This document shows positions 4,570 to 52,024 of a stretch of DNA of 64,000 bases, piece after piece. Position 1 is the first letter of the stretch. The number at the start of each line of letters is the position of its first letter. Under the pieces are notes generated by a model. That model did not search any database. It saw only the letters and a list, made by a program, of their open reading frames with translations, and had not been told where the DNA came from. Source of the stretch: Vulcanimicrobiota bacterium (lineage in GTDB: Bacteria; Vulcanimicrobiota; Vulcanimicrobiia; Vulcanimicrobiales; Vulcanimicrobiaceae); NCBI GenBank assembly GCA_003168375.1, contig PMSI01000003.1, forward strand, positions 992,001 to 1,056,000, read 5' to 3'. The translations under genes and the position numbers were made by a program.

Positions 4570-5048
4570 TAGCTCAGCGGGACCGTCTTCTTTTCGTTGG
4601 GTGCGAAGAAGTACGTGTTCGGCGAGATGATCGTGAAGCGGATCTGCACGCTGCGGCTCGACGCGCGGTGATCGGCTGCCGGCGCGGGGACGTAGGTCGA
4701 ACCGGCGCTCGTCATGTCGACGCGCGCGTCGGCGACCAGCGCCGGGCGGAGGCGTAGCCAGACCGCCATTTGCGCGGGGACGCTGAGTGCGTAGCGGCAC
4801 GTTCCGTCCGTGTCGGTCTCCGGCTGCGTGCGTCCGATGAGGTGGTTGTCGAGCGCGTCGCGCGCTTCGACGACCAACTCGGCGCAGGTCGGACTGCGCA
4901 GGCCGGACGCTGCGTCGTGGATCGCGATCGTGCCGTTTGCCAACGCAAGTTCGCGCGCGAGCGCGGGCTGCGCGAACACGACGACTGCGATTGCGGCGAG
5001 AACACCCTTCGACAAGCTCAGGGTGACAATGGTGGGGTGGCGGCTCAC
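4566..5048 (-). CDS. Secreted hypothetical protein whose N-terminus is encoded by a dispersed repeat
   Basis: 160 residues. The first 15 residues, including VTLSLSKG, are encoded by an inverted copy of the dispersed repeat (5005-5056). They act as a positively charged n-region for the hydrophobic stretch VLAAIAVVVFAQPALA, a plausible signal peptide. There is no alternative ATG, GTG or TTG between the repeat and the hydrophobic core, so the repeat appears to supply the start codon. The mature part has two cysteines (in PTCAEL and GTCRYA) and beta-strand character; no family recognised. Convergent with the gene ending at 4569, with a four-base stop overlap. Confidence 0.6.
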   Translation of the reverse strand: MSRHPTIVTLSLSKGVLAAIAVVVFAQPALARELALANGTIAIHDAASGLRSPTCAELVVEARDALDNHLIGRTQPETDTDGTCRYALSVPAQMAVWLRLRPALVADARVDMTSAGSTYVPAPAADHRASSRSVQIRFTIISPNTYFFAPNEKKTVPLSY

Positions 5049-14307: not shown

Positions 14308-14611
14308 CGATTCCTTTGCACAGCGCGCCGGCAGGACAGAGGCGGCCGAGGTGACGTCAGGAGATCCGAGTGGCTGGGGGTTTCGTTGCGGCTGTTGTCG
14401 CCCTTCGACAGGCTCAGGGTGACAACAATTTACAACAGAAAGAGACCCCAGGAGACGCCGGGTCCGACGTTCCTTGGGTCCGCGTTATCGGCCGAAGGGC
14501 ATAGGCAGGTATTGTACCAGAGAGGCCCCGGAAACTCAAGGCGGCTCATCGCCGCTTGGTCAGGCGGCTATCTGGAGGGTTGCGCGAGCGTGACCCGATA
14601 CGGCTAGGCCG
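14308..14611. other. Divergent promoter region of rpoC and the acylase gene
   Basis: 304 bases with no gene. It must hold the rpoC promoter. It contains one dispersed-repeat core (14399-14424) about 90 bases upstream of rpoC. No conserved promoter was identified with confidence. Confidence 0.6.
14399..14424 (-). repeat. Dispersed repeat core upstream of rpoC
   Basis: CGCCCTTCGACAGGCTCAGG then GTGACA; an inverted core copy lacking a clear GCTCACC outer end. Confidence 0.75.
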
Positions 14612-16942
14612 ATGGCCGGTCTGCTGATTCGCCGAGTCGCTCTTTCCCTCGGAGCCCTGGTTGGGCTCCTTGTTCTCCTCCTCGTGGTCTACGCCGGCCG
14701 CGTCGCTTGGGCGGCTCGAACCGGGGTCGCCGCAGTCCAGGGAACCCAGGCCGGCGTCCCGGTCGATGCGCCGGTGACGATCGCCCGCGACGCCCGCGGC
14801 GTGCCGCACGTGCGGGCCGGCTCGCTCCACGACCTCATGGTCGCAGAGGGCTACGCGATGGGTTCGGACCGGCTTTACCAGATGGACATGACCCGGCGCT
14901 ACGTCGACGGACGGCTCGCCGAGCTGCTCGGGAACCCGGTCGTGCGGGTCGACCGCCGGATGCGGCGTTACGGGATCCGCGAGCTGGCGGCCCAGACGTA
15001 CGCGCACTGCAGCCTCGAGGAGCGGGCGAGCATGCAGGCCTTCGCCGACGGCGTGAACGCCGCGGCCACCCACGAGCCGGCACCGCCCGAGTACGCGGCG
15101 CTGATGATCGGCTTCGAGCCCTGGCGCCCGGAGGACGCGCTGGCGGTCGGCTTCGCGACGGTGCTCGACCTGGACGACCGGCCCGACGACGTCGTCGTCC
15201 GCGACCAGGTCCGTCGGGAGCTCGGCGCGGCCGGGACCGACGCGCTCTACCCACTGACCGATCCGAAGTACGACGTCCCGACCAACGGCCGCCCCCCAGG
15301 CCCGATCGCGAACCTGCCACCGCTGCCGGGGGTCCGCGCTGCGCAGGTCGCGATCGCACCCAGCGACGAGCGCGCGCCGATCGGGAGCAACGCGTGGGCG
15401 GTCGGCGGCGACCGGACGACGACCGGCCGGGCGGTGCTCGCGAACGACCCGCACCTCGACATCGGCATCCCGGGGATCTGGTATCTCTTCGAAGGGAGCG
15501 CGCCTGGGATCCACGTCGGCGGAGCGGCGCTGGCGGGAACGCCCGGCATCACCCTCGGGCACAACGAGCACCTCGCGTGGGGCGTCACCGCCGGCGAGAC
15601 CGCGGCGATGCGCGTGATTCACGAACAGGCGCGCGGCGGCGATGAATTCTTCGAGGGTGGTCGCTGGGTGCGTGCGCGTCACCGGCACGAGGCGATCGCG
15701 GTGCGCTTCGGCGGCACCGTCGATGCGGATATTCTGGAGACCGGCCACGGCGTCGTGATCGCGCGCAGCGAAAAAGGCGGTGAAGCGTACGTGATGGACT
15801 GGCGGCTGCGCCGCCATCCGGTCTCGACGCTCGCGCCGTTCTTCACGCTGTTGCACGCACGTACCGCCGCCGACGGTATCGCGGCGATGCGCGTGTTGCC
15901 GGAACCGGCGCTCAATGTGCTGTTCGCCGACGACACGGGCCGCGTCGCCTATCACTTCGCGGGCAGCGTGCCGATGGAATCGACGTGGGGACGCTGGGCG
16001 AGCGACGAGAGCGCACCGGAACCCGCGTATCTCACCTACGATCAATCACCGCACGTTGACCCGTCGCGCAGCGCGCTGGTCGTCACGGGAAACAACCGCC
16101 CCGACGGCGCGGGCTCGCCGCGCCTCGCGCCGTTCTGGCCGCCGCCGTACCGTGCGTACGAGATCGCGCAATACTTCCGCAAACACGTCGGCCCGAGCGG
16201 CAAACTCTCACCCGATGCGATCCAGCACGAACAGTGGGACCCGGCGTCGCCGGCGGAATTCGAGTTCGCCGCGCTGGCCGCGAACGCCGCATCACGCAAG
16301 CACGGCGAGGCCGACCCGGCGGTCGCGCGCGTCATCACCGCGCTGCGCTCCTTCGACGGCGTGCTCACGCCGGACTCGCGCGGCGCAACCGCCGTCGTCG
16401 CCGTGCGCCGCGACCTGCTCAGCGCGATCGCCGCGGCGCATCTCCCGGAAAAGCTCGCGAAGGCGTATCCGCCGTCGAGCCCGGGATTCGAGGTCGTGCT
16501 CCGGTCACTGCGCGAGCGGCCGCGCGGATGGGTCCCGCACGACGACTGGGACCTTTTCGTGCTCGAATCGCTGCGGCGCGTCGCCACGCAGTTCGGCGGC
16601 GAGATTCCGACGTTCGGCACGTACGCTGCGCAGCCGCTGCTGCATCCGCTCGCCGCGTTCGGTTTCAAAGCGTGGAACGGACCGACGATGCCGGGCCGGG
16701 GCGGCAGCTTCGCGCCGGCGGTGCAGTGGAACGGACACGCGCAGTCGTTCCGCGCCGTGTGGATCGCCGGCGACTGGGACAACGGCATGATCGACATCGC
16801 CGCCGGCGAGTCCGGCGAACCCGGCTCACCGCACTACGCCGATCAGAACGCGAAGTGGATCAGCTTTGCGCGCACGACCCTGCCGTTCTCCGACGCCGCG
16901 GTCCGCGCCGCAACGAAGTCGACGCTCACGCTGACACGATGA
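14612..16942 (+). CDS. Penicillin acylase family N-terminal-nucleophile hydrolase (S45)
   Basis: 776 residues. An N-terminal membrane-spanning signal (LSLGALVGLLVLLLVVYAG) exports the precursor. The alpha-chain region has VTIARDARGVPHVRA and GYAMGSDRLYQMDMTRR, standard S45 features. The autocatalytic site is G258-S259-N-A-W-A-V-G-G: Ser259 becomes the N-terminal nucleophile of the beta chain after processing. NDPHL and GHNEHLAWG follow as expected. Such enzymes hydrolyse amides, for example beta-lactam side chains or acyl-homoserine lactones; the substrate here cannot be told. Its TGA overlaps the ATG of the M16 peptidase gene, so the two are translationally coupled. Confidence 0.93.
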   Translation: MAGLLIRRVALSLGALVGLLVLLLVVYAGRVAWAARTGVAAVQGTQAGVPVDAPVTIARDARGVPHVRAGSLHDLMVAEGYAMGSDRLYQMDMTRRYVDGRLAELLGNPVVRVDRRMRRYGIRELAAQTYAHCSLEERASMQAFADGVNAAATHEPAPPEYAALMIGFEPWRPEDALAVGFATVLDLDDRPDDVVVRDQVRRELGAAGTDALYPLTDPKYDVPTNGRPPGPIANLPPLPGVRAAQVAIAPSDERAPIGSNAWAVGGDRTTTGRAVLANDPHLDIGIPGIWYLFEGSAPGIHVGGAALAGTPGITLGHNEHLAWGVTAGETAAMRVIHEQARGGDEFFEGGRWVRARHRHEAIAVRFGGTVDADILETGHGVVIARSEKGGEAYVMDWRLRRHPVSTLAPFFTLLHARTAADGIAAMRVLPEPALNVLFADDTGRVAYHFAGSVPMESTWGRWASDESAPEPAYLTYDQSPHVDPSRSALVVTGNNRPDGAGSPRLAPFWPPPYRAYEIAQYFRKHVGPSGKLSPDAIQHEQWDPASPAEFEFAALAANAASRKHGEADPAVARVITALRSFDGVLTPDSRGATAVVAVRRDLLSAIAAAHLPEKLAKAYPPSSPGFEVVLRSLRERPRGWVPHDDWDLFVLESLRRVATQFGGEIPTFGTYAAQPLLHPLAAFGFKAWNGPTMPGRGGSFAPAVQWNGHAQSFRAVWIAGDWDNGMIDIAAGESGEPGSPHYADQNAKWISFARTTLPFSDAAVRAATKSTLTLTR

Positions 16943-22257: not shown

Positions 22258-23001
22258 CTACGACGTGTGCGTAGCCCTCGGGGAGCAGATCGCGAAGAAC
22301 GTATACGACGTTTCGCGATAGAGCCGATAGCAGGTTCCCACAACGCTTGGTTCGGGTTCCGGCTTCGTCACGTGCTGCGGGGCGTCGTAGGACTTGTCCT
22401 CGAGGAGCCAGTGCGTTTGAAGGATCGCCGGCGTCCCGTCGGAGAGGCGGACGAAGTATTGCGCGAACCCCTGAACGCTGCCGCCTCCGACGCGGTCGAG
22501 CTCGCGCTTGAAGTGGAGCGTGCGCGTGGCTCGCGCGAAATGCTGCGCGGCAGAGATCGGCCTCGCGTCTGCGGCAACGTCGTCGACCGAATACACGGGG
22601 ACGCGGGTTGCTTTCCCGCCGCGGGCCAGGACGTAGATGTCTTCGACGGCCAGATTCCGGCCGGCATCGGCGCTCACGCTGACGCGAAAGACCGGATTCG
22701 CCTCACCCGGAACGGCGTAAAACGCGGTTACCGGATACTCGACATTCTGGAGATATTCTGCCGCTTGAGGGTGCGTGACGAGCCCCGCTTGATGACGGGC
22801 GCTATCCGTGTAGGAGATACGGACGGTCGCCGGTTCGGCATTCGGCGCCGAGACGATGCGCGCCGCGGCAGCTGCACCGAGCCCTTTGGCTTGGACAGAC
22901 GGCTGCGGCGACGCCGCCGCCAGCAGAAAAAGCGCCGCAAACGCGATCGCCGGTCGTCGGAGACGGTAACGCTGCGCCACGTCGAGGGCGGTTCCAGACA
23001 T
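22258..23001 (-). CDS. Secreted hypothetical protein
   Basis: 247 residues. N-terminal basic residues then IAFAALFLLAAAS form a signal peptide. Two cysteines near the C-terminus (GTCYRLYR, FFAICSPR) could form a disulfide. Beta-rich pattern including FRVSVSADAGRNLAVEDIYVL. No family recognised. It is convergent with aceA, and repeats and a terminator lie beyond its start. Confidence 0.7.
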   Translation of the reverse strand: MSGTALDVAQRYRLRRPAIAFAALFLLAAASPQPSVQAKGLGAAAAARIVSAPNAEPATVRISYTDSARHQAGLVTHPQAAEYLQNVEYPVTAFYAVPGEANPVFRVSVSADAGRNLAVEDIYVLARGGKATRVPVYSVDDVAADARPISAAQHFARATRTLHFKRELDRVGGGSVQGFAQYFVRLSDGTPAILQTHWLLEDKSYDAPQHVTKPEPEPSVVGTCYRLYRETSYTFFAICSPRATHTS

Positions 23002-23064
23002 CGCAGGGCACCACCCGCGTGGTTATACGATCGCTTGTAGCGAATGGCTAGATGCCTCGCCGGC

Positions 23065-23126
23065 GCTCACCTCGCGTCGCCACTTTCCCCGATGTCACCC
23101 TGAGCTTGTCGAAGGGCGAACGATCG
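23065..23126 (+). repeat. Dispersed ~62-bp repeat, full-length solo copy
   Basis: Outer end GCTCACC, middle GTCGCCAC, core GTCACCCTGAGC and TTGTCGAAGGGC, inner end GAACGATCG. One of the best-preserved copies; it is followed directly by a strong terminator hairpin. Confidence 0.88.
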
Positions 23127-23138
23127 CGACAAAAAGGA

Positions 23139-23166
23139 AGAGGCACGCTCTGCCGAGCGTGCCTCT
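23139..23166. terminator. Strong Rho-independent terminator hairpin
   Basis: AGAGGCACGCTC, loop TGCC, GAGCGTGCCTCT, a perfect 12-bp stem followed by TTGATTTT on plus and CCTTTTTG on minus. No gene ends immediately before it, so it may be the relic of a lost gene or insulate the neighbouring element. Confidence 0.8.
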
Positions 23167-23214
23167 TTGATTTTAATCGGATCATTGTCATCCTGACGCC
23201 CCAATGTCCCCCGG

Positions 23215-23642
23215 GCTCACCTCGGATCACCTACTCTCCTAATGTCACCCTGAGCTTGTCGAAGGGTGCGGTCGGCGCAGTGGTATGGCGTGAAAGACTA
23301 TTGGGTCTACATGCTGCGCTGCCGGGATGGGACATACTATGTCGGCGTCACGTCGCGCGTCGACATCCGCGTCGCGGAGCACTCGCTCGGTGTCGATCGA
23401 AGATCCTATGTTTACGGCCGCCGGCCGGTGACGCTCGTGTATTCGGAAGTCTTCCGGACGCGCTCGAGGCGATCTTCGTCGAGAAACGACTCAAGGGATG
23501 GTCGCGCGCGAAGAAAGAGGCCCTCATTCGCGGCGATTGGGACGCGATCCGAAGCTTGTCGCGATCGTTCGCCCTTCGACGTCATCCTGAGCCTGTCGAA
23601 GGATCAGGGTGACATTAGGTCAAGTGGCAGTTCGCGGTGAGC
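23215..23642 (+). mobile_element. Small element: GIY-YIG gene between ~60-bp terminal inverted repeats
   Basis: Left end 23215-23270 (GCTCACC outward, core GTCACCCTGAGC, TTGTCGAAGGG) and right end 23562-23642 (CGATCGTTCGCCCTTCGAC inward side, GGTGAGC outward) are inverted copies of the dispersed repeat. Between them lies only a GIY-YIG nuclease gene with a one-base deletion. The right repeat contains an additional nested core copy (GTCATCCTGAGC, CTGTCGAAGGAT). A 192-bp relative with the same ends and the same gene tail is at 47692-47883. Confidence 0.7.
23290..23612 (+). pseudogene. GIY-YIG (YhbQ/UvrC-like) endonuclease, frameshifted
   Basis: From the GTG at 23290 the frame reads KDYWVYMLRCRDGTYYVGVT (GIY ... 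YVG core), the helix DIRVAEH with its arginine, and VTLVYSEVF. The frame is then lost: continuing in the other frame from about 23454 gives PDALEAIFVEKRLKGWSRAK, the family's conserved C-terminal half with the catalytic glutamate. A single missing C in the run at 23453-23455 explains the shift. The last residues (SFALRRHPEPVEGSG) are encoded by the right inverted repeat, so gene and repeat are physically merged. Intact, it would be a ~107-residue single-domain nuclease. A sequencing error is possible. Confidence 0.85.
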
Positions 23643-23667
23643 TCGGGGAACGTCGCGCTACGTCGCG

Positions 23668-23690
23668 CGATCGTTCGCCCTTCGACAAGT
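23668..23690 (-). repeat. Truncated dispersed repeat
   Basis: CGATCGTTCGCCCTTCGACA then AG, cut off exactly at the stop codon of the lipoprotein gene that ends at 23690. Confidence 0.65.
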
Positions 23691-24259
23691 TAATTTGGGC
23701 CGGGGCGGCTCCATAGTTTGGGATCGCCGTTTCCGCGGTCGTGGGGGATCCACGGTCGCGGTGGACTGAAGCATTCCGGCACGCCGGTCGTTATGTCGCT
23801 CTGGCCGCTCGGCATATAGAACTCGTTGCAGCCGCCGTTGAGCACGAAGTAGCCCGGTGCGTTGCCGGTACACGGTCCCCAGACGGCATCGTAGACGATG
23901 AACCACTTCTCGTTCTTCGCGAGATAGGCGAACCGCAGGGTGCTGGAATGGACGTACCGCCGAATCTTGCGCACCATCTCCAGGTCTTTGCGATTCGGGC
24001 GCGGCTCGCCCGCGCGCCCGAGGTCGTCAACGCGATAGCTCGGCGGCGTCATCCGCACATCCTGGCCCGGGTTCAGGACCGCGCAGGTCGTTGCGAATCC
24101 GGTGTGTTTCTCGTGCATCAGGACATGGTTGGCTGCATACGCCACGTCGACGCCCGCAAATTCGGCGGTGGCGATCGCACGCGGCCCTCCGCCGTCGCCC
24201 TTCGTCGCGCACGCGGCGAGTGCGGAGCAGAGCAGTATCGCCAGCGCGCGCGAGCTCAC
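23690..24259 (-). CDS. Lipoprotein of unknown function
   Basis: 189 residues from a GTG at 24259 that overlaps the stop of the AlkB-like gene (GTGA), implying translational coupling. The signal RALAILLCSALAAC ends in a lipobox, so the mature protein is lipid-anchored in the envelope. It contains paired cysteines (ATTCAVL, GPCTGN, GGCNEF, PECFSP) and a hydrophobic strand NEKWFIVYDAVWG. No family recognised. The stop codon abuts a truncated dispersed repeat, so the C-terminus might have been altered by that insertion. Confidence 0.75.
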   Translation of the reverse strand: MSSRALAILLCSALAACATKGDGGGPRAIATAEFAGVDVAYAANHVLMHEKHTGFATTCAVLNPGQDVRMTPPSYRVDDLGRAGEPRPNRKDLEMVRKIRRYVHSSTLRFAYLAKNEKWFIVYDAVWGPCTGNAPGYFVLNGGCNEFYMPSGQSDITTGVPECFSPPRPWIPHDRGNGDPKLWSRPGPN

Positions 24260-36747: not shown

Positions 36748-36772
36748 GTCACCCTGAGCCTGTCGAAGGGCG
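36748..36772 (+). repeat. Dispersed repeat core upstream of rpoB
   Basis: GTCACCCTGAGC then CTGTCGAAGGGCG, about 175 bases upstream of the rpoB start; mirrors the position of the copy upstream of rpoC. Confidence 0.8.
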
Positions 36773-46146: not shown

Positions 46147-46208
46147 GCTCACCTTGAACCGCCACCCACCCCGACGTCACCCTGAGCTTGTCGAAGGGCG
46201 AACGATCG
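46147..46208 (+). repeat. Dispersed ~62-bp repeat, full-length solo copy
   Basis: GCTCACC outer end, ACCGCCACCC, GTCACCCTGAGC, TTGTCGAAGGGC, GAACGATCG inner end. Oriented toward 46209; no nuclease remnant follows. Confidence 0.88.
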
Positions 46209-46529
46209 TCACAAAAGGGACGAGGATTCAAATCCCACTCGTCGTCGCCGTGACGTCCCAGCGCGCCCGTGCTCAAGGCTTGCTGATATTTGCCGATCAC
46301 ATCGCGCAGCGGAAGCCTCTACTGATTTGATCGCCCATCCGCTGATTTAAGGCTTCGCCTACTGGTATATTCGCGTTTCCACTGATAAAATGACGAAGAC
46401 TCCCGATCATCGGACCGCTTTTCCGCGTCCGGCACGACACGAGCCAAAACACCAACCTCTACATTATCGTCACCCCGCACGTCATTCGGGCGGCGCGGTA
46501 GCGGCGCAACCGCCGCCGAAGGAGACACG
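46209..46529. other. Intergenic region holding a phased repeat
   Basis: 321 bases, AT-richer than its surroundings, no convincing gene. Contains four CTGATTT-like words spaced exactly 20 bases (46322-46395). Confidence 0.6.
46322..46395 (+). repeat. Degenerate 20-bp phased repeat, cluster 1
   Basis: CTGATTT at 46322, CTGATTT at 46342, CTGGTAT at 46362 and CTGATAA at 46382: exact 20-base spacing with diverged sequence between. Related words with the same spacing occur at 47596-47648. Confidence 0.55.
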
Positions 46530-47691: not shown

Positions 47692-47883
47692 GCTCACCAT
47701 AAACCGCCACCAAACCCGATGTCACCCTGAGCCTGTCGAAGGGCGAACGATCCACCCCAAAGCGGTGCGCAAGAACGAGGCGCTGACTCGCGGCGATTGG
47801 GGCACGATTCGTCGCTTCGCGCGATCGTTCGCCCTTCGACAAGCTCAGGGTGACATTAGGATGGGTGGCGATTCAGGATGAGC
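47692..47883 (+). mobile_element. 192-bp MITE-like derivative of the GIY-YIG element
   Basis: Left repeat 47692-47752 and right repeat 47822-47883 are ~62-base inverted copies with outward GCTCA ends. The 69 internal bases still encode the nuclease tail: VRKNEALTRGDWGTIRRFAR, continuing SFALRQAQG into the right repeat, homologous to AKKEALIRGDWDAIRSLSR of the element at 23215-23642. Confidence 0.75.
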
Positions 47884-49985: not shown

Positions 49986-52024
49986 TGGTTAGCCGCTCGC
50001 GCTCGCTGTTCGACCGCTCGATCCTGTTCCCCGCGATCCGCGCGTCGTTCGTCAAGCTGGACCCGCGCGTCCAGCTGCGCAACCCGGTGATGTTCATCGT
50101 CGAGGTCGGCGCCCTGGTCTCGATCTTCTACGCCTTCCGCGACGCGCGCAACGGGCAAGCATCGTTCGACATCGCGATCTCGGCGTGGCTGTGGTTCACC
50201 GTCCTGTTCGCCAACTTCGCCGAGGCGATGGCGGAGGGCCGCGGGAAAGCGCAGGCGGAGTATCTGCGGCGCACCAAGACCGACACGATCGCCCGACGTC
50301 TGGCCGATGGGCGGGAGGAGCGCGTCCCCGCGACACAGCTGCGCCGCGGCGACCGCGTCGTGGCGGAGGTCAACGACCTGATCGCGACCGACGGCGAGAT
50401 CGTGGAAGGGGCGGCGACCGTCGACGAGTCGGCGATCACCGGCGAGTCCGCACCCGTCATCCGCGAAGCGGGCGGCGACCGCTCCTCCGTCACCGGCGGC
50501 ACCCGCGTGCTGTCGGATCGTATCGTCTACGTCGTCAGCGCGAACCCCGGCGAGTCGTTCCTCGACCGCATGATCTCGTTGGTCGAAGGCGCCCGCCGCC
50601 AGAAGACCCCCAACGAGATCGCGCTCTCGATCTTGCTCTCCGGCTTGACGATCATCTTCGTGATCGCGGTCGCGACGCTGGCCCCGTTCTCGATTTACGC
50701 CGGAGCCACTCCCAGCGTCGTCGTGCTGATCGCGCTGCTGGTCTGCCTGATACCGACCACGATCGGCGGACTGCTGAGCGCGATCGGGATCGCCGGCATG
50801 GACCGCGTCCTACAGCGCAACGTGCTGGCAATGTCGGGCCGTGCCGTCGAAGCGGCCGGCGACGTCGACACGCTGCTGCTCGACAAGACCGGGACGATCA
50901 CGCTGGGCAACCGGCAGGCTACCGAGATCGTGCTCGCACTAGGCGCCGACGACACGATCGTCTACCGTTCGGCGTATTTCGCCTCGCTGGCCGATGAGAC
51001 GCCGGAGGGCCGCAGCATTGTCACGCTGAGCCTGTCGAAGGGTGCGGGTGACGGTAGCACCGTCCTGCCGGCCGGCGCGGTCGTCGTGCCGTTCAGCGCC
51101 TACACCCGCATGTCCGGCGTCGACTACGCCGACGGCTCGCAGTTGCGCAAAGGCGCCCCCGACGCGATTCGCGCCTGGATCTCGCAGAACGGCGGCGGCC
51201 GGACCGACGTGCTCGCGGCCGATGTCGACCGCATCGCGCGCGCCGGCGGCACGCCGCTCCTGCTCGCCGACCGGGGGGGCATCCTCGGCTGCATCGGGCT
51301 GCGCGACATCCTCAAGCCAAACACGCGCGTGCGCTTCGACCGCCTGCGGGCGATGGGGATTCGCACGGTGATGATCACCGGCGACAACCCGCTCACCGCC
51401 AGCGCGATCGCGCGCGAGGCCGGCGTCGACGACTTCCTCGCCGAGGCGACGCCCGAGACGAAGATGACGCTGATCAAGCGCGAGCAGAGTGAAGGCCGCC
51501 TGGTCGCCATGACCGGCGACGGCACGAACGACGCGCCGGCGCTCGCGCAAGCCGACGTCGGCGTCGCGATGAACAGCGGGACCCAGGCGGCCAAAGAGGC
51601 CGGCAACATGATCGACCTCGACTCCGATCCGACGAAGCTCATCGAGATCGTCGAGGTCGGCAAGCAGCTCCTCATGACGCGCGGCTCGCTCACGACGTTC
51701 TCGATCGCGAACGACGTCGCGAAGTACTTCGCGATCCTCCCCGCGATGTTCATCGCGGCGTATCCGGCGATGGACGCCCTCAACGTCATGCGCTTGAACC
51801 CGCACAGCGCGATCCTCTCGGCGATCATCTTCAACGCACTGATCATCGTCGCGCTGATCCCGCTCGCCCTGCGCGGCGTTCCGTACCGCCCGCGCGGCGC
51901 GGACGCCGTCCTGCGCGAGAACGTCCTGATCTACGGCCTGGGCGGGATCATCGTGCCCTTCATCGGGATCAAGGCGATCGATCTCATCCTGGGCGGCCTT
52001 CTTCACCTCACCGGAGCGAACTAA
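49985..52024 (+). CDS. kdpB: K+-transporting P-type ATPase catalytic subunit KdpB
   Basis: 679 residues; start chosen at the TAATG junction with kdpA. Catalytic features: actuator TGES (in AITGESAP), phosphorylation motif D300-K-T-G-T in [10 protein letters not shown], nucleotide-binding [18 protein letters not shown] and hinge [13 protein letters not shown]. KdpB drives high-affinity K+ uptake by ATP hydrolysis. Residues 345-353 (IVTLSLSKG) are encoded by a 22/23 match to the dispersed repeat, replacing a segment that in E. coli KdpB reads IVILAK; total length between ADETPEG and RMSG is conserved, so the protein is probably active. Confidence 0.98.
51020..51042 (+). repeat. Dispersed repeat core inside kdpB
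   Basis: GTCACGCTGAGC then CTGTCGAAGGG differs from the consensus core at one base. In frame, in the nucleotide-binding domain region. Confidence 0.75.

Follow-up and report, generated by a model that had tools for sequence, protein, structure and literature searches.

In REP/REPIN systems with RAYT (TnpA-REP) enzymes, known as REPtrons, many copies of tagged imperfect hairpins form inverted doublets, the gene of the cognate enzyme lies between inverted copies, and several enzyme/repeat pairs are found per genome. The tag of these repeats is GTAG and their enzyme is a Y1 HUH transposase. In Neisseria, site-specific single-stranded GIY-YIG nucleases (Ssn) reportedly accompany NTS/dRS3-type repeats, and this family is presumably the nearest kind to the enzyme of the present locus. 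A further group, the CGTC-tagged REPs, carries the tag CGTC, TGTC or CCTC on a hairpin with a stem of 8-9 bp beginning with AT, a loop of 4-5 nt and a CCA tail, forms inverted dimers, inserts into reading frames and was described in 2013 as having no dedicated transposase (Di Nocera et al. 2013, PMC3733652).

The locus presented here lies in a 64-kb window, that is, the whole stretch of DNA that was analysed, from the genome of an uncultured bacterium (G000; 4.4 Mb, 7 contigs, 97% complete). The system works like the REP/RAYT system without being one. This parallel, drawn in the first-pass annotation, holds for the inverted flanks, the dispersed repeats and the doublets (the last in the congener G006). 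The enzyme, however, belongs to the GIY-YIG nucleases and not to the Y1 HUH transposases, and the tag is GTC(A) instead of GTAG. The tag is shared with the CGTC-tagged REPs (PMC3733652), whose 8-9 bp stems and 4-5 nt loops differ from the covarying 4-5 bp stem and the conserved, asymmetric 11-nt loop of the repeats in question; longer forms occur in Bradyrhizobium. Among the papers available to a literature search, none gave a GIY-YIG/repeat link. With Ssn the system has in common a bare GIY-YIG protein, abundant cognate repeats and more than one homologue, each paired with a repeat variant of its own, whereas the bracketing of the gene by a repeat pair, the covarying stem, the doublets and deleted derivatives, and the occurrence in Eremiobacterota and other phyla set it apart. 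The window copy is best explained as a minimal unit that has decayed or has only recently acquired its frameshift, and that consists of a single small GIY-YIG gene within two inverted hairpin repeats; this explanation, including a putative cutting of hairpins, joining by the host and spread of the repeats, is favored with modest confidence as a whole.

The GIY-YIG gene occupies positions 23290-23612 and starts with a GTG at 23290, 23 bp past the end of the left repeat core. Its N-terminal part (23290-23454, forward strand; VYM...YVG, R and H) is open, matches the Pfam domain PF01541 at 5.4e-8 and shows 89% identity with the intact orthologue of G004, which is found at the same locus with aceA on one side and an AlkB-like gene on the other. 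The C-terminal part (23463-23612, forward strand) includes the catalytic Glu and the KGW motif in a second frame, with 92.5% identity to the corresponding part of G004. In this second frame, the stop and the ~16 codons before it fall within the right repeat, in agreement with the ~15 codons noticed at first. The missing base previously noticed is also confirmed as a single frameshift in the assembly. Substitutions between the two orthologues by codon position amount to 4/3/19 before the frameshift and 1/0/6 after it; since the differences fall mainly at third positions on both sides, the frameshift is, on this comparison, recent or an assembly error. An intact, active source copy elsewhere had been expected, but in the 97%-complete assembly of G000 only UvrC (a match on contig C2, taken as such from its 828-aa frame) and the frameshifted gene itself match the GIY-YIG family.

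In the predicted structure (pLDDT 95), the protein has a GIY-YIG domain as its only domain, followed by helices. The UPF0213/YhbQ proteins (PDB 1zg2 and 1ywl) share domain and fold and are the top matches in both sequence and structure, followed in structure by Slx1 and the nuclease domain of UvrC. YhbQ-type paralogues from the same genomes differ from the subfamily of the window in having neither the KGW motif nor bracketing repeats (flanking inverted-repeat scores of 10-12). All 21 aligned proteins are GIY-YIG, with one marginal T5orf172 as the sole further Pfam match; NCBIfam gave no match, and PADLOC no defence system match worth keeping. A survey, which retained the 80 best among several hundred matches, showed no variation at the Tyr, Gly, Arg, His and Glu positions in 80/80 proteins, and the subfamily is for this reason probably active as a nuclease. 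The Ssn enzymes are likewise small GIY-YIG proteins in which the catalytic residues are conserved.

The dispersed hairpin repeat GTCAYCCTGAGCYTGTCGAAGG brackets the nuclease gene in inverted copies, with the GTCA tags outermost. In detail, the left repeat (23207-23266, forward strand, core 23244-23266) was recognized by repeat comparison and core match, and the right repeat (23570-23613, reverse strand) by inverted-repeat search and the G000/G004 alignment. Inverted arms of 48 nt with 75% identity were found at 23206-23253 and 23604-23651, and arms of 25 nt with 100% identity at 23108-23132 and 23556-23580 when an extra left copy is used. These arms, together with the domain match, bear out the outward-facing inverted pair enclosing a GIY-YIG gene that was proposed initially, but for the shared arm a length of about 25-48 nt fits better than the ~60 bp then assigned to it. 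The pair is also less simple than was proposed. The left side consists of two direct copies, the extra one (23057-23116, forward strand, core GTCACCCTGAGCTTGTCGAAGGG at 23094-23116) being a direct repeat with 78% over 60 nt and a core match. The right repeat is split by a nested 23-nt copy of opposite orientation (23581-23603, forward strand), which replaces its 4-nt centre and, according to the G000/G004 alignment, is missing in G004. A further, truncated copy, CGCGATCGTTCGCCCTTCGACAAG, with inverted and direct repeat matches, lies at 23666-23689 on the reverse strand.

Across G000, GTCAYCCTGAGCYTGTCGAAGG is present in 169 copies at ≤3 mismatches, as opposed to 0 for a reversed-pattern control, and 12 repeat cores were found in the window where 0.02 are expected. 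Among these, dispersed copies recognized by core match are located at 5006-5022 and 14402-14418 on the reverse strand and at 36753-36769, 46181-46197 and 51025-51041 on the forward strand. The presence of repeats varies between G000 and G004: the copy at 51025-51041 is common to both, and the counterpart of that at 14402-14418 is rearranged in G004. Opposite position 15344, an apparently clean 24-bp insertion was rejected, as finer alignment showed a messy replacement. At locus L219 (4337-4430), repeat copies appear to lie in frame within a coding region and are missing in the G004 orthologue.

A terminator-like hairpin, AGGCACGCTC...GAGCGTGCCT, accompanies the repeats as an inverted repeat at 23131-23174 (no strand assigned), with similar hairpins in G004. 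There (L073) it recurs beside repeats, like a second repeat element. This hairpin, the position of hairpins near gene ends and the intergenic location of other repeats would suit a reading by coincidence or regulatory hitchhiking, in which the repeats are terminators or mRNA stabilizers gathering at small, often transferred genes. Such a reading is very improbable and already strongly disfavored by the comparison of relatives. Of 113 relatives, which represent six phyla or more, 78 carry a tagged repeat on both flanks, as against only 6/449 shifted control windows. Other GIY-YIG genes carry no such repeats, and in the 3.9-Mb genome of Eudoraea the sole two copies of the scanned pattern GTCANNNTGAGCN{3,4}TCGAA flank the gene, a number that departs from the many genomic copies of the window system and of Ssn. 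The matching of stems and the abundance of the cognate stem, described below, also stand against hitchhiking.

Among the 78 loci with both flanks tagged, both tags point outward in 60, and the left stem equals the right one in 36, as compared to 14.8 by shuffling (maximum 30 in 2000 shuffles). The survey loci span Bacteroidota, Alphaproteobacteria, Actinomycetota, Nitrospinota, Ignavibacteria, Eremiobacterota and others. The comparison with controls is limited in that only the 80 best among several hundred matches entered the survey and that the controls are mostly coding windows. A flanking inverted-repeat score of at least 20 was reached by 40% of 78 survey loci versus 0/421 shifted windows, and a score of at least 15 by 68% versus 1.9% of the 421. 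A set of 98 relatives showed strong subfamily homologues to be widespread in the family. Nearly all family homologues with both flanks in hand sit in an inverted pair, whose repeat variant matches between left and right and differs among genomes. The GIY-YIG gene and the repeat are associated, with stem variants matched between the flanks and the genome. Subfamily genes are flanked far above the control windows, and the initial proposal that gene and repeat form one unit stands on the tagged flanks and on the scores of at least 20.

A recognizable flanking repeat is missing in about one third of the 80 survey genes, also at the rnc-era locus of Sphingomonas. In four Actinobacterial relatives (L127, L146, L154 and L158) hairpins of other sequence, for example CTGGTCGAG...TCGAGACC, are located at the flanks, and the tag is therefore not universal. 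Plasmid-borne relatives were found in 8 records, including megaplasmids of Methylobacterium and Sphingomonas, with mixed flanks. Phages were considered as carriers of the unit and rejected: only distant GIY-YIG relatives (~35-44% identity) were found in them, none with flanking repeats (scores ≤13).

Genomes that have the gene tend to be rich in repeats. A common-stem repeat in at least 10 copies is present in 18/28 genomes with the gene and in 6/33 without it (P = 5e-4, indicative only, as the genomes are related). An abundance of repeats where no nuclease exists would speak against a unit, and these counts run the other way, yet G008 has 33 repeat copies with no gene found, and in G002 the repeats persist although only a remnant of the gene is left.

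The repeat consists of a GTCA tag, a variable stem of 4-5 bp and the conserved loop TGAGCYTGTCGA. GTC occupies the tag position in 178/219 repeat cores examined; in most relatives the tag is TGTC or CGTC, and in Methylobacterium CCTC. In 37 distinct gene-flank sequences, picked because they carry the GTCA tag and this loop, so that tag and loop are fixed by the choice of sequences and only the stem is free, 41 double-change cells were counted versus 11.8 after shuffling, and none of 500 shuffles reached 41. In a wider count, the second variable stem position is paired in 86/93 versus 36 by shuffling. Stems also correspond to genomes. In G006 the gene is flanked by GCT/AGC stems, and this genome has 61 copies of that stem versus 0-12 in its congeners. 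In G045, each of two paralogues is accompanied by a different repeat variant. The pairing of gene and repeat, with the stem varying in step on both sides in many phyla, points to a specialized enzyme that would act on its own repeats and probably spread them.

These cognate pairings (the stem of G006, the covariation and the tagged flanks) would also fit a repeat-guided nuclease of genome traffic. Such an enzyme would cut its own single-stranded repeats without moving them and would modulate the uptake of DNA, recombination or the removal of hairpins; recombination would spread the repeats, and the gene would travel by horizontal transfer. A role of this kind is reported for Ssn and NTS in Neisseria, and the position of the gene in the congeners is consistent with it too. 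At the site between aceA and the AlkB-like gene, G000 and G004 carry the unit and G002 retains a remnant; the site is empty in G003, G006 and G010. The unit of G010 is found at another locus, where G000, G002, G003, G004 and G009 have only a short spacer (that of G002 retains a single repeat), and those of G003 and G006 sit at further loci. Congener proteins at different loci share ~60% identity, and both this divergence and the different loci fit horizontal gain. A traffic nuclease alone, however, leaves unexplained the doublets of fixed length, the internally deleted derivative and the repeats with the 3' end of the gene (see below); it is considered possible but rather unlikely.

The comparison of empty and filled sites proposed earlier has thus located the unit at different loci in congeners and found empty sites. 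As judged from these sequences, gene and repeat co-evolve as a single unit, which has been mobile in the past. It has moved or been transferred; horizontal transfer, without any transposition, could account for the different loci. A homing endonuclease, whose gene would enter existing repeat pairs by cleavage of DNA that carries the repeat and by copying through host recombination, is improbable. The GIY-YIG fold, the place of the gene within a repeat doublet and the existence of gene-free doublets agree with it, but flanking stems track the gene, and the empty aceA-AlkB sites of G003 and G006 contain no repeat at all, whereas empty alleles of a homing endonuclease keep the recognition site. 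Terminal inverted repeats are shared with insertion sequences, but a recognized transposase is missing, GIY-YIG being the only enzyme, and neither target-site duplication nor a clean excision footprint was seen by eye at the empty and filled sites or doublets. The genes at 22258-23001 and 23690-24240, which flank the unit in G000, were both not found at the G004 locus, and the spacer is therefore especially prone to gains and losses. In G010 the aceA-AlkB spacer (L197), without the unit, has another cluster, of GTCACGGTGAGATAATCGC repeats with the same tag type.

The preferred reading, a minimal nuclease and repeat-pair unit, accommodates several derivatives. Dispersed copies in G006 form inverted, REPIN-like doublets, several of them exactly 74 bp from tag to tag with a related spacer. 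In the window, a 134-bp internally deleted derivative (47721-47854, forward strand; tblastn 1.5e-10) consists of an inverted repeat pair around the 3' end of the GIY-YIG gene (KNEALTRGDWGTIRRFARSF) and is also present in G004. Some dispersed copies carry the last codons of the nuclease gene. Under this reading, the repeats would become single-stranded during replication, repair or transformation; the nuclease would recognize its own stem variant together with the loop and cut at the hairpin; paired inverted hairpins, either empty (the REPIN-like doublets) or holding the gene, would be set free or copied, and host enzymes would join them to DNA at another site. No GIY-YIG enzyme is known to hold a covalent DNA intermediate, so the joining would have to be done by the host. 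Repeats would spread in gene-bearing genomes and remain after the death of the gene.

With a one-domain nuclease gene inside an inverted hairpin pair, whose stem is common to the gene flank and the genome, a candidate enzyme for the CGTC-tagged palindromes is at hand. More tentatively, and with some doubt, this nuclease may be the missing mobilizer of the CGTC/TGTC-tagged REP superfamily, a transposase-free autonomous element that cuts stem-specific hairpins and seeds doublets and deleted derivatives across phyla. If true, REP-like systems, which now rest on RAYT transposases, would have a second class of enzyme, and the many natural enzyme/repeat pairs would offer material for a specificity code.

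In G004 (L223, 2583-2900), several copies of the repeat with the tail of the GIY-YIG gene follow each other with a spacing of ~79 bp. Between positions 46275 and 47928 of the window and locus L214, segments of 1.4-1.8 kb are swapped between repeat copies in G000 versus G004, possibly by recombination at the repeats.
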